From a virus: a stretch of DNA of 55,931 nucleotides. Shown in pieces: positions 3,075-55,931 of the stretch. The position numbers and the translations under genes were made by a program. Location: positions 1-55,931 of the IMG/VR virus record IMGVR_UViG_3300047443_000122; one strand, 5' to 3'. Every line of letters starts with the position of its first letter. The first letter of the stretch is position 1. The notes beneath the pieces were generated by a model. That model saw only the letters and a list, made by a program, of their open reading frames with translations, was not told the DNA's origin and searched no databases.

Positions 3075-4006
3075 CAGGCACCGCCCATCTCGGGTAGGTC
3101 CCGGCCGAGCCGCCAGTTGTGGTGGAGAGGCGAGTCGTGCGGGTCCTCCCGCAGCGCCTGCAACGGAGCGATCCGCTGGGTGATCGCATCCGGCGCCCCG
3201 GTCAGCGCCGCCCTGAGCTCCCGCATCTCCGAAGAGCCCGGGCCCACCGCAGGCACGACCGTGTCGTACGGGCCCGGCTCATCGGCCAGCGGGCAGTCCA
3301 CGTCATGCGGCTCGCCACGGCCCGTGTCCGGGCACGTGCACCCGTCTTCGTCCTCGTTGACCAGGTCGTCCGGGTCCTCGCCCGTGAAATCGGGCGGGCA
3401 CGTGCACGGGGCTCCGGACTGGTGGACGGCGGCGCAGTCCGGGTGGTGCTTGCGGATACGAGGCGGCTCCGATTCGGCGGGCTCGTCCTTGCTGGCGGCC
3501 TGCGACGGGGCAGCAGCCTCGGGGCCGAGCGCGTCCTCCAGATCGATCGTGTCGACCGCGCTCCAGCCCTTGTCGATGGCCCGCTCCACGAGGGAGTGGA
3601 CATCAGCCCAGCGGTCGCGCTCCGCGTCCCGCCAGGCGACCCCGGCCGTCAGCTCCGAGATCTCGTCCCGGTTCGCGCGGAGGGCCTGCACCGCGTCGTC
3701 GAGCGCCTCGTTCGTCGAGTGCCGCTCCGCCAACAACTCCGCGACCTGGGAGCGCAGCTGTTCCAACTCGGTCCGGGGCGGCGGGAACGACGGCGCGCCC
3801 ACCGGGACGGGCAGCGCGAACGCCGACCCGACGATCCCCAACTCCGCGAGATCCGCCAGCGACACCAGCACCTCATCCGGGACACCAGCCACCGAACCCG
3901 CCAGCGCATACCAGCCACGCCCGTCACGCGACACCGCACGCCGCGTCCAACACGAGCCATCCGCCGTGTTCACCACCAGCGGGTGATGCGACACCGGGGC
4001 GCTCAT
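3074..4006 (-). CDS. Cys/His-rich coiled-coil early protein, 310 aa
   Basis: This protein begins at ATG 4006 (ATGA). The N-terminal domain (1-85) is Trp/beta rich. Residues about 90-150 form a coiled coil (ELEQLRSQVAELLAER and following). The C-terminal third has spaced cysteines and histidines (HHPDCAAVH, APCTCPPDF, DGCTCPDTG, DVDCPL) that could hold one or two zinc ions. The Cys-containing tail is rich in D and E. It resembles unassigned proteins of Streptomyces phages. It could be a scaffold or a nucleic-acid accessory protein, but this is inference. Confidence 0.65.
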   Translation of the reverse strand: MSAPVSHHPLVVNTADGSCWTRRAVSRDGRGWYALAGSVAGVPDEVLVSLADLAELGIVGSAFALPVPVGAPSFPPPRTELEQLRSQVAELLAERHSTNEALDDAVQALRANRDEISELTAGVAWRDAERDRWADVHSLVERAIDKGWSAVDTIDLEDALGPEAAAPSQAASKDEPAESEPPRIRKHHPDCAAVHQSGAPCTCPPDFTGEDPDDLVNEDEDGCTCPDTGRGEPHDVDCPLADEPGPYDTVVPAVGPGSSEMRELRAALTGAPDAITQRIAPLQALREDPHDSPLHHNWRLGRDLPEMGGA

Positions 4007-4320
4007 GCCGCCACCTGCGCAACCTGCGCCGCCGGGTACGACACCCACACGTCGACCGTCACGTCACGCCACACAGCGCGGACGCTGTCGCACATCCGGT
4101 GGTCACCGTTGCGCTCGAAGTCCGTCGTCCGGACAACGCCTCCGATCACCTCCGCGTACGCGGCGGCCACCGTCTCCCCGCTCGCGTCGGCCGCGAGGGT
4201 CGCGACGAGGGTGCCCGACTCTCCGATCGACCAGCTGACGGGCGGCAGTTCCGGGTGCTCGCGGAGCAGCTCGACGAGCGCCATCGCGGGGGCGAGTTGG
4301 GGGATAGAGTCACTGGTCAC
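4003..4320 (-). CDS. Hypothetical early protein, 105 aa
   Basis: It starts at GTG 4320, nine bases after an AGGAAGAGG ribosome-binding site. The protein is mixed alpha/beta, with an N-terminal helix (ALVELLREHPELPPVSW) and strands around GTLVATLAADASG and VTVDVWVSYPA. The 95 bp upstream hold no gene, and I see nothing else there. The pattern PELPPVSWSI...GTLVA is familiar from short Streptomyces hypothetical proteins. No function is assigned. Confidence 0.65.
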   Translation of the reverse strand: MTSDSIPQLAPAMALVELLREHPELPPVSWSIGESGTLVATLAADASGETVAAAYAEVIGGVVRTTDFERNGDHRMCDSVRAVWRDVTVDVWVSYPAAQVAQVAA

Positions 4321-4415
4321 GGGGACCTCTTCCTTCTCTGGTTGGTGGGTCGCCGAGTCGTGGGGTCGTCCGGGCCTGGCAGTCGGGACGGCCCTTCGGC
4401 GTGTTCAGGGATTGA

Positions 4416-4607
4416 TCAGGCGGCGTCGGCCGCGGGCCGGACGTCTACTGCCGGCCGGGGCGCCGGGATCTCGCCGGCGGGGTTCGTCATGATCCGGCGG
4501 AGTGCCTCGACGAGTTCGTCAGTCGGCTCTGGAGCGAGTGCCACTCGGGCGCGGATCGCGGCGACGGTTGCGGGGCCGAGGATCGCGAGGCGCTCTTCGC
4601 GGGTCAT
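4416..4607 (-). CDS. Small hypothetical protein, 63 aa
   Basis: ATG 4607 overlaps the stop of the Cro-like gene (ATGA), making this the second gene of the leftward early operon. The first 40 residues form one or two helices (REERLAILGPATVAAIRARV, ELVEALRRIM) and the tail is proline-rich. The small size and immediate coupling to a regulator suggest an early accessory factor, but no family is visible. Confidence 0.6.
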   Translation of the reverse strand: MTREERLAILGPATVAAIRARVALAPEPTDELVEALRRIMTNPAGEIPAPRPAVDVRPAADAA

Positions 4608-4828
4608 GCGGCGGCCTCGATGGCGACGCGCTTGATGACCGTGCGCAGGTCAACGTCATATGCCTCGGCGAGGCGCATGGCCGAGTTCAGGTCAGGCTGG
4701 GTCTCGCCGTTGAGGATCCGATAGACGGACGATTCGGTGATCCCGGTGCGGCGGAAGATGTCGGCTCGGGTGTTGTCGCCGTGGTGTGCGGCCACTTCGA
4801 GGACCTTGGCGATGTCCAGACGGAACAC
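4604..4828 (-). CDS. Cro-like HTH regulator, first gene of early operon
   Basis: A 74-residue XRE-type helix-turn-helix protein. The start GTG 4828 was chosen because a near-perfect GGAGGTGA site lies four bases upstream; a longer frame reaching 4930 lacks one. The HTH spans roughly residues 18-45, with recognition helix GITESSVYRILNG, followed by a third helix and IDLRT-like DVDLRTVIKR. It is divergent from the 148-residue repressor, whose recognition helix (GMTDSSVTRLWQG) is almost the same, so both should read the same operators. By analogy with lambda Cro it would commit the phage to lysis by shutting the repressor promoter. Confidence 0.8.
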   Translation of the reverse strand: MFRLDIAKVLEVAAHHGDNTRADIFRRTGITESSVYRILNGETQPDLNSAMRLAEAYDVDLRTVIKRVAIEAAA

Positions 4829-4885
4829 GTAGTCACCTCCCTCGGTGGGCGGTTGGCAGGGGTTGTCGCTGGTAGCAGGGTGTTC

Positions 4886-4901
4886 CTTGCTCACGAGGGA
4901 G
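4886..4901. promoter_or_regulatory. Degenerate operator copy (weak)
   Basis: CTTGCTCACGAGGGAG keeps one perfect half-site of the CTCCCT-N4-AGGGAG dyad and four of six bases of the other. Its centre lies 34 bp from the strong copy at 4920. It could be a low-affinity secondary site. Confidence 0.35.
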
Positions 4902-4918
4902 ACTCTTTCACGAAACAC

Positions 4919-4936
4919 CCTCCCTCGCAAGGGAGG
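4919..4936. promoter_or_regulatory. Operator O1, dyad CCTCCCT-N4-AGGGAGG
   Basis: A perfect 7+7 bp inverted repeat around CGCA lies about 91 bp upstream of the Cro-like start and on the leftward-promoter side. The 16-bp core CTCCCT-N4-AGGGAG recurs at 5055-5070. It is the most likely binding site of the repressor and the Cro-like protein. Confidence 0.75.
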
Positions 4937-5004
4937 AAATTGCCCGCAAGGTATGAATTTCCACTAGAACGCGCATTCGAATACAGGTGTGAGCTGTGTT
5001 AACG

Positions 5005-5019
5005 CAGGTCAGTGACCTG
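5005..5019. promoter_or_regulatory. Perfect 15-bp palindrome between O1 and O2
   Basis: CAGGTCA-G-TGACCTG lies between the two operators and differs in sequence from them. It could be a site for a third regulator or host factor. Its placement in the divergent promoter region makes chance less likely. Confidence 0.5.
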
Positions 5020-5024
5020 ATCGC

Positions 5025-5040
5025 GACTCTTGCGCGGGAG
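5025..5040. promoter_or_regulatory. Degenerate operator copy (weak)
   Basis: GACTCTTGCGCGGGAG retains five of six bases of the right half-site and three of the left. Its centre is 30 bp, about three helical turns, from O2. This spacing is suggestive of cooperative binding, but the match is poor. Confidence 0.3.
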
Positions 5041-5054
5041 GGATTTTCTGGCTA

Positions 5055-5070
5055 CTCCCTAACTAGGGAG
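5055..5070. promoter_or_regulatory. Operator O2, dyad CTCCCT-N4-AGGGAG
   Basis: A perfect 6+6 bp inverted repeat around AACT ends 15 bp before the repressor ATG at 5086. Binding here would block the repressor's own promoter or early transcript, as in autoregulated phage repressors. O1 and O2 centres are 135 bp apart. Confidence 0.75.
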
Positions 5071-5085
5071 GTACAGTTCCGGGAC

Positions 5086-5532
5086 ATGACCGATGCGACC
5101 CCCACACGCGCGCAACGATTCGCCGCCATCGTCGTGCCAGCTGCCGAACACGCCGGCTACACCGGCCACGGCGCCAAAGCGCGCTTCGCGCGGGACACCG
5201 GCATGACCGACAGCAGCGTCACCCGCCTGTGGCAAGGAACCGCCCTCCCCGAGGCGCGGTTCTACGAAGCCATCGCCACCGCAACAGGCATCGACCTCAG
5301 AACTCTCCTCGTGGAAGGTGGCGTTCTGTCGCCTGAATCCCTTCAGTCACTGTCCGAAACGGATCGATCGCAGGTAGGCTCTGGCCTCACGCCGGAGGAA
5401 GCGGCTGATCGACTAGGGATTCGGGACGAAGTGGGGCGCCAGCTTTTCTACGCAACCATCGAACGTCTCAAGCGTCTGCAAGACGACCACGCCGATCACG
5501 CTGAGCCCGGAGGGACAGCGGCACAGATGTGA
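5086..5532 (+). CDS. Phage immunity repressor (CI-like HTH protein)
   Basis: This 148-residue plus-strand gene begins at ATG 5086; an upstream GTG at 4996 would place both O2 and the 15-bp palindrome inside the gene and was rejected. The HTH lies near residues 30-55 (ARDTGMTDSSVTRLWQG). A flexible middle with LSPESLQSLSETDR follows, then a C-terminal helix (LFYATIERLKRLQDD) that may dimerise. It is divergent from the Cro-like gene, with operators between. The expected role is maintenance of lysogeny by repressing the leftward early operon. It stops 13 bp before the membrane-protein gene, implying one transcript from the prophage. Confidence 0.8.
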   Translation: MTDATPTRAQRFAAIVVPAAEHAGYTGHGAKARFARDTGMTDSSVTRLWQGTALPEARFYEAIATATGIDLRTLLVEGGVLSPESLQSLSETDRSQVGSGLTPEEAADRLGIRDEVGRQLFYATIERLKRLQDDHADHAEPGGTAAQM

Positions 5533-5545
5533 GGCGAGGGTGCAT

Positions 5546-6094
5546 ATGAATCTCACGGGCGGCAGACAGGCCACAGGAACAGCAACTCTGGCGGCCGTCG
5601 GGGGACTTGCACTCACCGTCCACGGACTCATGGGCGATAAGCCGCTGTGCTCTTTCAGCGGTGTCACCCTCGTCATGGTCGCGTTGACCGCCATCATCCT
5701 GACCATGATCCGGAAATGGGTCACCGACACCAGCGATGAACGACGTCTCCTCGCCGCAACCCAGCGTGAAGCCCAGGCCGAACGGAGCCGCTACCTCGCC
5801 GCGAAGGCGGCCCTCGTCAACGAACAAGCGCGCATGAGCAAGGACATAGCCGCGGAGCGCGCGGCACTCACCGCCCGGCTCAAGAGCGAACGTGATGCGA
5901 TGCAAGCCGAGTTTGATGCGGCGCTCGGTGAAGTTTCGTCCGATGCGGTGAATATCGCGATGTCCTGGGTTCTTGCTGGAAAGTTCGCCCCGCCGCAGCC
6001 CCAGCAGGGCAACCTCATCCAGTTCCCTCACCAGCAGCCGCAAGGCCAGCCGCAGCGTGAGCGGTCGCGGGAGCACGGAGTCGTCCGGCCCTGA
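5546..6094 (+). CDS. Membrane-anchored coiled-coil protein cotranscribed with the repressor
   Basis: ATG 5546 follows GAGGCGAGGG at good spacing; a GTG two codons earlier is possible. Two TM segments occupy about residues 12-28 and 38-54, then a long charged helix (about 65-140, AATQREAQAERSRYLAAKAA onward) and a Gln/Pro-rich cytoplasmic tail. Similar two-TM coil proteins sit beside phage repressors in Streptomyces. Expression with the repressor in the prophage makes a superinfection-exclusion or prophage membrane role plausible but unproven. Its last 80 bp run antisense to the end of the integrase gene. Confidence 0.7.
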   Translation: MNLTGGRQATGTATLAAVGGLALTVHGLMGDKPLCSFSGVTLVMVALTAIILTMIRKWVTDTSDERRLLAATQREAQAERSRYLAAKAALVNEQARMSKDIAAERAALTARLKSERDAMQAEFDAALGEVSSDAVNIAMSWVLAGKFAPPQPQQGNLIQFPHQQPQGQPQRERSREHGVVRP

Positions 6095-7661
6095 ACCCCG
6101 GCTCACCGAAGAACGCCAGCCGGATACGGCCGTCATCCAATGCGCGCCGGCCAGTCGACTTCACCTTGTGCAGACGCACCGTCACGATCTTCCGGATCAC
6201 CTCGCGTTTCTGATCCATCGTGAGCCCCGGCTCCGCAGGTTGGTCCGCAGTCTGGGGGCGTCCGTTCCATACGAGGTCGGGATCGTTCGACTCCAGCATC
6301 CGGAGCAGCAGTGGCGACACCCCCGTGAACGTCGTCAGCTTCTTCCGCTCCGTCTCCAGCTTCGGCTCCAGCCGCGACTCCATCGCCGCGAGCGAGCCCG
6401 CGGACAGTTTGAACCGGCCGGTTTCCTTGTCGAATTCATGGGCCAGAGCGCGAGCTTCGGCGAGCTGCTCCTCGTAGGCGTTGATCAGCTTCTGTGTGGC
6501 GGCCGCCTTCTCCTTGACCTTGTCGTCCGCCGGTACCAGCGCAGCCCGCGCCGTCTTCTTATCGCTGAACCAGTCGAGGACCGCTTCCTCGACGTAGGCG
6601 TCGAGCACGGCCATGACGATGGAGGTATCGAACTTCTCCTTGCAGACCAGCGTCGTCTTCCGCACGCCACTCGGAGCGAGGTAGCGCAAGACCGCGTGGT
6701 CGCCGCACTCGCCACACAGAGCGACGTACGACAGCAGGTGCTTCGGTTCGGTGCCGCGTTGCGTCCGGCGGGCTGGGTCGGTGAGCTTGGCCGTGACCCG
6801 GTTGAACATGGCCCGGCCCTGCGGGGTGTCGAGTCCCTTGATCGGAGCCCACACGGCTGGGATGTACGTGGTCAGGTGAAGACGTTCACCCAGGTAGGCC
6901 CGGTTCAGCAGCATCTGCCGGACCGCCTGCTCTTTCCACTCGCGACCGTCCGGGCGTGCCGCGTCCGTCTCGGAGCGCAGCCATCGCGTGAGGGCCCTGA
7001 GGGAGTGACCAGCGTCCATGCGCTCCAGGGCCTGGAGTACGTAGGTCCCGCGCACGGGATCTTCGGTCTGTCCCGTGCAGCGCTTGCGCCCGCTGACTGT
7101 CTGGTAGGTGCGGATGTAGCCGTAGATGGCTTTGCCGTGCGGCATGCCTGCCTGGGCTTGGGAGTTGGTGGTGCGGATGTTCCGGTCGCGGATGCCTTCG
7201 GCCTCGTCTTCGGCATCGATGGCGTGCATGGCCGTGGCCTTGCTGTCATCGCGTCGGCTGAGGTCGTAGATCTGGCCGTTGTAGCAGAGGAGGGTGCCGG
7301 TGTCCCGGCATGCTTTCCGGAAGCGGACGTAGGCTTCCAGGTCCCTGTAATAGCGGGATGCTTCGAAGGCGATCACGATGCGTCGCACGCCCCGGGGAGG
7401 GGGCTCCTCGGTCATGGAGGCGATCAGAGCCTCGAAGTCGTCGCGGACCTTGCGGCCGTGGCGGCTGGCTGAGACGTCTGTGTCGTTGAACTCGCGGCGG
7501 ATGCGCCAGTTGTGTCTGTTGCAGAGACCGCGCCCGTTGGCGAGTTGGTCTTCGACGGAGGCGCCGCTGCTTGTGGAGTCGTCGCTGTTGCGGCCGTAGA
7601 GCAGGGCTTCGAAGGTGACGCCGGGGATGACCAGGTGCAGGTATTCGGGCGCGTAGGGCAT
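6015..7661 (-). CDS. int: Large serine integrase
   Basis: This 548-residue site-specific recombinase inserts the phage genome into the host chromosome. The resolvase domain occupies about 15-170, with the nucleophile Ser26 in YGRNSDD and the downstream EASRYYRD active-site arginine region. A recombinase domain follows (about 185-300, GKAIYGYIRTYQ). A zinc-ribbon segment has paired cysteines (ALCGECGDHAV ... VCKEK, about 315-345). A long coiled coil (about 385-450) is the part that controls directionality in this family. The start ATG 7661 has no clear ribosome-binding site, so translation may be leaderless or begin slightly downstream. The probable attP is 24 bp upstream. Length is typical. 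Confidence 0.95.
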   Translation of the reverse strand: MPYAPEYLHLVIPGVTFEALLYGRNSDDSTSSGASVEDQLANGRGLCNRHNWRIRREFNDTDVSASRHGRKVRDDFEALIASMTEEPPPRGVRRIVIAFEASRYYRDLEAYVRFRKACRDTGTLLCYNGQIYDLSRRDDSKATAMHAIDAEDEAEGIRDRNIRTTNSQAQAGMPHGKAIYGYIRTYQTVSGRKRCTGQTEDPVRGTYVLQALERMDAGHSLRALTRWLRSETDAARPDGREWKEQAVRQMLLNRAYLGERLHLTTYIPAVWAPIKGLDTPQGRAMFNRVTAKLTDPARRTQRGTEPKHLLSYVALCGECGDHAVLRYLAPSGVRKTTLVCKEKFDTSIVMAVLDAYVEEAVLDWFSDKKTARAALVPADDKVKEKAAATQKLINAYEEQLAEARALAHEFDKETGRFKLSAGSLAAMESRLEPKLETERKKLTTFTGVSPLLLRMLESNDPDLVWNGRPQTADQPAEPGLTMDQKREVIRKIVTVRLHKVKSTGRRALDDGRIRLAFFGEPGFRAGRLRAPATAHAAAGLAAAGEGTG

Positions 7662-8555: not shown

Positions 8556-8753
8556 TCAGGCGCCGAGCGTCCCCGCCCTCACGCCCTGGAGGAACGCGCC
8601 CCAAGCGTCGCCCGAGGCGGCTGCGGCGGGAATGCCGCGGTCCTTGGTGTCACGGAAGAACGCCCCGCCGGTGGTCTTGGCGACCTCGACGCAGGCCCCG
8701 TTGCCGCCGGAGTAACTGGACGTGGCCCAGGTGAGGTCGTCGGTGTTGTGCAT
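8556..8753 (-). CDS. DUF397 domain protein
   Basis: A 65-residue protein has the DUF397 signature throughout: TWATSSYSGGNGACVEVA (about 7-24), FFRDTKDRG and DAWGAFLQGVRAG. Start ATG 8753 follows AAAGG. DUF397 genes are abundant in Streptomyces chromosomes, where they neighbour HTH regulators of the WhiJ/AbaA type that affect development and antibiotic production. Here it lies downstream of an HTH/TPR regulator and two small genes, so the phage carries a host-type regulatory cassette. The molecular role of DUF397 is not established; an antagonist role toward the partner HTH protein has been discussed for the host systems. Confidence 0.9.
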   Translation of the reverse strand: MHNTDDLTWATSSYSGGNGACVEVAKTTGGAFFRDTKDRGIPAAAASGDAWGAFLQGVRAGTLGA

Positions 8754-8781
8754 GGTGCGCCTTTCAGTAGTTGTTCTTGAC

Positions 8782-8818
8782 GGGTGGCCGTCTGTCCCGT
8801 CGGACCAGACGGCCACCC
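8782..8818 (-). terminator. Hairpin terminator before the DUF397 gene
   Basis: A perfect 13-bp stem (GGGTGGCCGTCTG with its complement at 8806-8818) has an 11-bp loop. It lies between the Cys-containing gene and the DUF397 gene on the minus strand, suggesting that DUF397 has a separate promoter in 8754-8781 or is reached by read-through. No T-run. Confidence 0.55.
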
Positions 8819-9585: not shown

Positions 9586-10839
9586 TCACACGGGCACACC
9601 CAGTTCCCGCGCCAGCCCCAACGCGTCATCCCGGACCATCCGCGGCCCCGACTTCACCAGCTCCGGCAGCACCGACCGGGTGTGCAAGTTGTACTGGATC
9701 GTCTCCGGAGACTCACGGAACGCCTTCCCCAGCAGCGACACCGCGGCCGTGCCCTCCCCAAGCATTCCGTGCGCCCGGGCCGACTCGATCAAGTGGTACG
9801 AGCGGCGCGTCGCCGATGGAATCTGGCCCAGGTCCAGCGCGTCCGCAACCTCCAGCGCCTTCGCGGGCTGCATCAGATCGTTGTGCATGGTGATCGCGTA
9901 CCCGTTGACGATGCCCCGCCCGAAGACCAACCAGGGGTGCGCGTAGTCGTCACCGAGCTGGCGGGCAGCGTCGTCGGCCTTGTCCCAGTACCGCCACGCA
10001 TCCCCCTGCTGGCCCGTCTTCGCGTACGACAGGGCCACCGCGAGATACAGCAGCCCGCGGCGGGCAATGTGTTCCGGGTCCTCTCTGTCCTGCAACAGGG
10101 CGGCGGCCTGCTCGGCGAGGTCGACGCGCGCCTCCGCGGCTTCTCCGGCGTCACGGTGGACGTGGTTCATGTACCAGGCGGCGGCCGCGATCGCGCGCGG
10201 GCTGTCCGCGTCCTGCGCAGCCGTCATGGCCCGGTCGCCGGTGAGGACGACGAGATCCGGCGCGGGCTGGAAGCTGAGGAACAGTTGAGCGAGGTGGTAG
10301 GTCTCCGCGAGCGAGACCAGCGCCCGCCGGCGCTCCGCCCCTTCAAGGGCGCGTGCCGCGTGCTGGGTGTCGGCGAGGAGGCTGGGCAGTAGGCCGACGA
10401 TGCGGGTGCGGTTCCCCTCCACCGTCGTCCCGTGGTTGGTGCGGGGGTCGCTGTCGTGCCACAGCTTCCATGCGGTCCGCAGCCGGGCGGCGAGGATCTC
10501 CGCGGACTCCGGCTCGCGGTCGTCGGGGGCGAGCTGGTAGGTGGTGAGAGCACGCTTCACGGTCGGCAGGGCGCCGTGCTCCGCCTTCGTGTAGGTGGCG
10601 GCTGCGAGGCGTTCTTCGCCGGTGAGTTCGGCGAGGTCTTCGATGCCGAGGACGTGCGCGAGCCTGAGTAGTTTCGGGAGGCGGGGCATTCCGATGCGGC
10701 CTGTCTCGATGGCTTTGACCCACTCGGCGGACTGGTCCATGAGGCCTGCGACGACGGCGCGGGTTTTCCCGGTGCGTAGGCGGGCGTGTTGGACGCGCTG
10801 GCCAAAGGTAGGGGGTGCGGTGTCGGTGTGCTCGGGCAT
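9586..10839 (-). CDS. HTH/TPR transcriptional regulator, 417 aa
   Basis: ATG 10839 follows GGAG at six bases. An N-terminal XRE HTH (about 12-70, FGQRVQHARLRTGKTRAVVA, MDQSAEWVKAIETGR) is fused to a helical repeat region of TPR type (about 150-417), with repeated A-x-x-Y motifs and ARDAGEAAEAR-like helices. This architecture is the common Streptomyces regulator type in which the TPR part senses a peptide, protein or stress signal. In a phage it is unusual. Its neighbours (Cys-rich protein, small Cys/His protein, DUF397) match host chromosomal cassettes, so lysogenic conversion of the host is the most attractive reading. Codon usage looks like that of its neighbours. Confidence 0.8.
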   Translation of the reverse strand: MPEHTDTAPPTFGQRVQHARLRTGKTRAVVAGLMDQSAEWVKAIETGRIGMPRLPKLLRLAHVLGIEDLAELTGEERLAAATYTKAEHGALPTVKRALTTYQLAPDDREPESAEILAARLRTAWKLWHDSDPRTNHGTTVEGNRTRIVGLLPSLLADTQHAARALEGAERRRALVSLAETYHLAQLFLSFQPAPDLVVLTGDRAMTAAQDADSPRAIAAAAWYMNHVHRDAGEAAEARVDLAEQAAALLQDREDPEHIARRGLLYLAVALSYAKTGQQGDAWRYWDKADDAARQLGDDYAHPWLVFGRGIVNGYAITMHNDLMQPAKALEVADALDLGQIPSATRRSYHLIESARAHGMLGEGTAAVSLLGKAFRESPETIQYNLHTRSVLPELVKSGPRMVRDDALGLARELGVPV

Positions 10840-55630: not shown

Positions 55631-55931
55631 CAGGAGTCCCCCTTGTACTGCTTGGCGATGTCGATGCGTTCGGTCGGGTTCGGGGCGACGCACGCGGCGT
55701 AGGCGTCGGGGTAGTGCTCGGCCATGAGCTCCAGGTCGACCTTCGGGGCGGCGTTGCTGGGTTCCAGGGAGTAGGCGCGCTCGCCGCCGATGAGGGCGGA
55801 CTGTGCGCTGCCGAGGGCGGCGATCATGCGGGCCTTCGCTGCGGCCTTCGCCTTCTTCGCCTTCGACTCGGCGCGCTGGTGGGTGCCGTAGTCGAGGAGC
55901 GCGTCGAGGGCGTCGTCGTGCCGGTCGACGT
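55630..55931 (-). CDS. YqaJ-type phage exonuclease, C-terminal part (cut by window edge)
   Basis: Continuation of the gene that starts at 824. Unique bases 55630-55843 carry the last 71 codons (with AARMIAALGSAQSALIGGER and ending DIAKQYKGDS) and the stop overlaps the ERF start (TGATG); bases 55844-55931 are the repeated copy of 1-88. An internal ATG at 55827 is not a start. Joined, the product has 345 residues. Confidence 0.9.
   Translation of the reverse strand, partial: VDRHDDALDALLDYGTHQRAESKAKKAKAAAKARMIAALGSAQSALIGGERAYSLEPSNAAPKVDLELMAEHYPDAYAACVAPNPTERIDIAKQYKGDS
55844..55931. repeat. Terminal direct repeat, right copy
   Basis: Exact copy of bases 1-88. The number of bases after removing it is in frame with the exonuclease gene (824 + 214 = 1038 = 346 codons including stop), a strong internal check on circular closure. 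Confidence 0.95.

Follow-up and report, generated by a model that had tools for sequence, protein, structure and literature searches.

A predicted CI/Cro-like immunity region with four conserved operators in a temperate phage, very probably of Streptomyces

Whether two divergently encoded helix-turn-helix (HTH) proteins of a phage act on the same operators, as CI and Cro do in lambda, is the question raised by a locus in IMG/VR record IMGVR_UViG_3300047443_000122, all 55,931 nucleotides of which were analyzed here and are called the window. An initial annotation had proposed such competition, citing a recognition-helix core common to both proteins, two strong and two weak dyads between their genes, and a 15-bp palindrome. 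Our analysis indicates that the locus probably governs immunity in a temperate phage of Streptomyces, and that its two proteins would form a CI/Cro-like switch by acting on the same operators. This reading is supported in its main line, the basis being a single evolutionary event together with analogy.

The locus and its two regulators

The features on which the argument draws are as follows (window coordinates):

4607-4828, minus strand: Cro-like protein, 74 aa; GTG 4826-4828, stop 4604-4606; helix GITESSVYRILNG, with E32 first
4833-4843, minus strand: Shine-Dalgarno (SD) of cro, GAGGGAGGTGA, from sequence
4886-4901: operator B, CTTGCTCACGAGGGAG, over the predicted cro start; 97% mean conservation; matrix rank 3
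4902-4907, minus strand: predicted cro -10, AAGAGT (CAGAGT in most relatives), placed by conservation
4920-4935: operator C, CTCCCTCGCAAGGGAG; contains the predicted cro -35, TTGCGA (4925-4930, minus strand)
4965-4980: LexA-like (SOS) box, TAGAACGCGCATTCGA, a degenerate copy matching CGAAC-N4-GTTCG at 8/10 bases
4994-5016: conserved block with no assigned role, TGTGTTAACGCAGGTCAGTGACC / TGTGTTAAYGCAGGTCAGTGRCC; includes the left arm of the 15-bp palindrome
5029-5044: operator D, CTTGCGCGGGAGGGAT; position conserved; matrix rank 4, score marginal
5049-5054, plus strand: possible weak repressor -35, TGGCTA, placed by spacing only
5055-5070: operator E, CTCCCTAACTAGGGAG; occupies the repressor promoter spacer
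5072-5077, plus strand: repressor -10, TACAGT, directly before ATG 5086
5086-5532, plus strand: lysogeny repressor, 148 aa; ATG 5086; helix GMTDSSVTRLWQG, with D42 first
6015-7661, minus strand: serine integrase, on the strand opposite to the repressor

The 55,931-base record carries an 88-base direct repeat at both ends (1-88 and 55844-55931), which fits a circular assembly, and its minus strand holds the terminase, portal, capsid, and tape-measure genes. Since near relatives of the switch region were found in Streptomyces genomes, the host is very probably Streptomyces. Among phage records, there were no near DNA relatives of 4000-6200, and the sole match to the first 25 kb was ~370 bases of phage Chymera. 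An XRE-type regulator (9586-10839, minus strand), the region of which has a 75% DNA match to Chymera, lies near a small DUF397-like protein (8556-8816, minus strand), a pair typical of Streptomyces. Loci were sampled from viral contigs and Streptomyces genomes, yielding ~30 close and ~30 distant relatives, and a homologous repressor (E <= 1e-10) was present in 49 of the 394 Streptomyces genomes sampled. An RNA family was also sought at 4500-5600, and none was found.

We identified the 74-aa protein as Cro because it is encoded on the packaging/structural-gene strand and its homologues are annotated Cro. The 148-aa protein was identified as the repressor from its SV1-type phage homologues, which carry annotations of immunity or transcriptional repressor. 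For cro, a TTG start at 4930 was rejected in favor of GTG 4828, which has a strong SD. A GTG at 4996 was likewise rejected as the repressor start, as its frame is broken by stops or by a one-base insertion in relatives and a -10 element precedes ATG 5086. A search of the 148-aa repressor for a peptidase or self-cleaving domain matched HTH families only. Structures were predicted from the window and locus proteins as sole input, and placed the recognition helix of Cro at residues 32-39 (mean pLDDT 93) and that of the repressor at 42-50, within an HTH domain of mean pLDDT about 95. Foldseek matched both models to small XRE/Cro-type HTH proteins, including 434 Cro, P22 c2, and SinR for Cro, and SinR and lambda repressor for the repressor. 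Neither model had a confident full-length PDB match and, since no E-value fell below 0.001, only the fold class is claimed for the two proteins. Cro C-termini end in AA, VA, PA, or TA in 54 of 59 loci, 35 of them in AAA (4607-4615 in the window); these ends resemble an ssrA-like degradation tag, and Cro may be short-lived.

Operators and promoters

The two strong dyads that had been reported, CTCCCT-N4-AGGGAG, are exact copies at 4920-4935 and 5055-5070, with no further exact copy in the whole window, and the two "weak versions" are the sites at 4886-4901 and 5029-5044, both of which occupy conserved positions in relatives. There are thus four conserved operators arranged in two promoter-linked pairs, with start-to-start spacings of 34, 109, and 26 bp, a correction of the initial annotation, which had also overlooked the LexA-like box and the probable lack of a leader on the repressor mRNA. 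When up to two mismatches were allowed, 4886 was the only addition in the window, and since three sites are what chance would also produce, their number by itself proves nothing. The identity and closeness of the two exact copies do count as evidence: perfect 6-4-6 dyads number 27 in the window, of which 4920 and 5055 are the sole pair with identical arms within 300 bp. As an independent test, we scored all 55,931 bases with a symmetric site matrix derived from 22 relatives, excluding the window itself and its near twin, L017. The top four positions were 5055, 4920, 4886, and 5029, with scores of 18.9, 18.9, 18.1, and 12.4, respectively; the next best place scored 12.3, and the best score in random sequence of window length was 13.6 on average. 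Operator D, with its marginal score (12.4 vs. 12.3), is therefore supported by its position and conservation and not by its score.

In an alignment of 22 upstream regions, operators B, C, D, and E were all present, at near-fixed positions in close relatives, with conservation of 0.97, 0.89, 0.83, and 0.94, respectively, compared to 0.71 across the remaining intergenic sequence. Each operator is 16 bp long and built from half-sites of CTCCCT, or of CTTGC plus T or G. In the window, E and C are symmetric CTCCCT sites and B and D are hybrids with a CTTGC half, and half-site types swap among the sites of relatives, e.g., CTTGCG/AGCAAG is found at C of L020 and L021, and the halves of B are exchanged in L053. 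A pattern built from DNA only (E, -10, and ATG) retrieved 26 stretches from 2.9 million viral contigs, 25 of them with the repressor gene. Seven loci (L018, L024, L026, L032, L046, L048, and L052) have a fifth operator (CTTGC...AGGGAG) that abuts C at about -151 from the repressor ATG; the window has no such site.

The 15-bp palindrome reported between the strong dyads, CAGGTCAGTGACCTG (5005-5019), does exist. As an element it was discarded, since nine perfect palindromes of its shape occur in the window and its symmetry is lost in relatives, a pattern expected of chance. The conserved block that includes its left arm, TGTGTTAAYGCAGGTCAGTGRCC, keeps a constant distance to the start of the repressor gene.

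A TANNNT motif is found at the place of the repressor -10 in 58 of 63 loci, as opposed to 0-3 in control windows. Because the ATG immediately follows this conserved -10, the repressor mRNA very probably lacks a leader, its predicted start being at about 5084-5086. The AGGGAGG in operator E is therefore not its ribosome site. On the other strand, the likely cro -35 within operator C would be separated from the predicted -10 by a spacer of 17 bp. Operator D was considered as a lambda-like activator site and rejected, as it is centered near -49 from the presumed repressor start.

That the dyads are instead translation or termination signals, with AGGGAGG resembling a ribosome site and the repeats forming hairpins, is highly improbable. 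The right arm of operator E does place AGGGAGG 14 bases before the ATG; however, conservation extends to both dyad arms, each of the four copies sits at a promoter, one clade shows a symmetric change of the two arms to TTCCCT/AGGGAA, the dyads are not followed by a run of T, and the repressor mRNA very probably has no leader.

With the dyads read as operators, the proteins, presumably as dimers, would act on two promoters. Cro would head the leftward transcript on the packaging/structural-gene strand, from a predicted promoter carrying C and B, and repressor bound to B and C would keep cro off. Operator E would occupy the repressor promoter (-10 at 5072), with D just upstream, so that either protein bound to E would shut this promoter, resulting in autoregulation by the repressor or, in lytic growth, repression by Cro.

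Recognition helices and the sharing of operators

The helix core that the initial annotation put forward is present in both proteins (GMTDSSVTRLWQG and GITESSVYRILNG), but it is weak as proof of shared specificity: the two helices are identical at 7/13 positions, and the Cro helix of the window matches repressor helices of distant families at 6.3/13 on average (maximum 8). Since this identity is near background, the shared core comes near to being a generic mark of this fold. More pertinent is the first residue of each predicted recognition helix, which is acidic in both proteins (D42 in the repressor, E32 in Cro) and which, from our own alignment, we take to be the equivalent of lambda Gln44 and 434 Gln28. 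In the proposed mechanism, D42 and E32 would read the outermost operator base.

Comparison among relatives revealed that this residue co-varies with the operators. In seven loci (L054, L057, L099, L103, L105, L109, and L119), the half-sites of operators B and E, and of most copies of D, are TTCCCT/AGGGAA. Position 1 of the repressor helix in these seven is K, once S; among the six Cro proteins compared, that position of the Cro helix is I, V, or T. In CTCCCT-type loci, the repressor has D or E at this position in 23 of 24 cases (the exception is T in L052), and Cro has E in 24 of 24. Since the seven TTCCCT loci group together as a single clade in the repressor tree and again in the Cro tree, the co-variation constitutes a single event, and Fisher values must therefore not be counted as independent trials; it could also have come about through hitchhiking. 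Elsewhere the trees disagree, as the repressors of L095, L097, and L104 are nearest to the TTCCCT clade and their Cro proteins and operators are CTCCCT-type. The two genes therefore recombine while each locus keeps one helix/operator class. These results support, without proving, that both proteins read the same operators.

The main competing explanation is that the proteins divide the four operators, each having its own subset, and do not compete for all of them. There is precedent in Staphylococcus aureus phage Phi11, which has the same gene layout and where CI occupies O1 and O2 alone and O3 is the sole site bound by Cro (PMC3991615). Moreover, since B and D are hybrid and E and C symmetric, operator affinities probably differ, and each protein might have preferences of its own. 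Against such a division, the TTCCCT clade shows a concerted change of the two helices and of operators near each promoter, and half-site types swap between sites, as noted above for C and B. We consider a division of this kind rather unlikely and favor shared operators. What sustains the CI/Cro-like proposal is the concerted change of helices and operators (one event), the conserved four-site architecture, and homologous pairs annotated as Cro and immunity repressor; the helix core is largely a signature of the fold, and the central palindrome is not a conserved element.

A LexA-like box and comparison with known systems

Midway between the operator pairs lies the LexA-like box, which would offer a possible route for an SOS signal. 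Since the repressor has no peptidase domain, host LexA is a plausible, and possible, means of SOS induction of the window's switch. Taken alone, the window's copy has a shuffle p of 0.14, and no strict CGAAC-N4-GTTCG occurs elsewhere in the window. In close relatives, CGAAC-N4-GTTCG precedes the repressor ATG by 118 to 121 bases; at least 9/10 bases are matched in 18 of 30 close loci and the box is perfect in 11 of 30, scores reached by dinucleotide shuffles of box-bearing loci in 0 to 2% of trials. The relatives' box equals the Streptomyces venezuelae LexA consensus, tCGAAC-N4-GNNCGa (PMC9380542). In SV1-type phages, the box comes directly after a strong TTGACA promoter that points to the repressor. 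Yet the chances appear evenly balanced that in the window's phage the box is not a working LexA site, being either a remnant in decay or a site for a different regulator, considering that the copy matches at only 8/10 bases, that no clear promoter lies beside it in the window's family, that four loci (L033, L095, L097, and L104) have another dyad in its stead, and that Streptomyces prophage Samy was not induced by mitomycin C (PMC11302927). The substitute dyad, GTGAACTTTCAC, lies ~125 bp upstream of the repressor ATG and is perhaps the site of another regulator.

The SV1-type branch (L060-L087) also has a leader ORF with a strong SD, ~50 to 85 bases before the repressor ATG, which overlaps the leaderless repressor start and, for most of the group, is read in one and the same alternative frame; in the window's family, no conserved SD-led small ORF was found after the box. 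One speculative scenario, which we regard as doubtful, is that this lineage adds host LexA to a CI/Cro-type switch, with the LexA-box promoter and leader ORF of SV1 silencing the repressor. In the SV1 branch, DNA damage would cause transcription and translation to run over the repressor gene, or a leader peptide to be made, and so silence the repressor, which would allow the SOS response to induce the phage with the repressor left uncleaved; in the window's branch, a weakened box would be retained.

For a large group of Streptomyces prophages, the locus supplies a defined immunity switch. It is also a natural experiment on how DNA is recognized, in which two proteins and their operators change together, and a lead on DNA-damage sensing by Streptomyces prophages, which is little studied, one such prophage having been reported to be SOS-independent (PMC11302927). 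The switch would add a member to the known CI/Cro kind, and its LexA input is the part that could be new.

Like lambda and 434, the window has a divergent HTH repressor and Cro, with several operators of the same kind overlapping both presumed promoters. The cI mRNA of lambda transcribed from PRM is leaderless, as is predicted for the window's repressor mRNA, and helix position 1 is placed as Gln28 of 434. However, lambda and 434 have three adjacent operators, the middle one shared, whereas the window has two pairs 109 bp apart; repressors of the lambda family have a RecA-stimulated, self-cleaving C-terminal domain that the 148-aa repressor does not have; and operator D is not positioned for lambda-like activation. 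Phi11 resembles the window in its divergent CI and Cro, Gram-positive host, and homologous operators between the genes (PMC3991615), but its three operators, which are split between CI and Cro, are 15 bp long, as opposed to four of 16 bp.

The SV1-type phages (cluster BC: SV1, Picard, Raleigh, Darolandstone, Tubberson, ToastyFinz, and Ididsumtinwong), whose homologues are already annotated Cro and repressor, share with the window a homologous repressor (30-36% identity) and Cro in the same divergent order, a small gene after cro, a small putative membrane protein after the repressor, and a serine integrase near by. Their operators differ (e.g., CTTTCA-N4-TGAAAG), their repressor, membrane protein, and integrase form one rightward run, whereas the window's integrase is on the minus strand, and their LexA-like box, unlike the window's, is on a strong promoter towards the repressor. 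For Tubberson, a BPs-type, integration-dependent immunity with attP inside the repressor gene has been proposed (PMC12243558). Finally, as in LexA-controlled phages such as GIL01 (PMC4551915), a host LexA-like box lies inside the lysogeny control region; unlike GIL01, the window has a full repressor/Cro pair with operators of its own, to which LexA would be an additional input.
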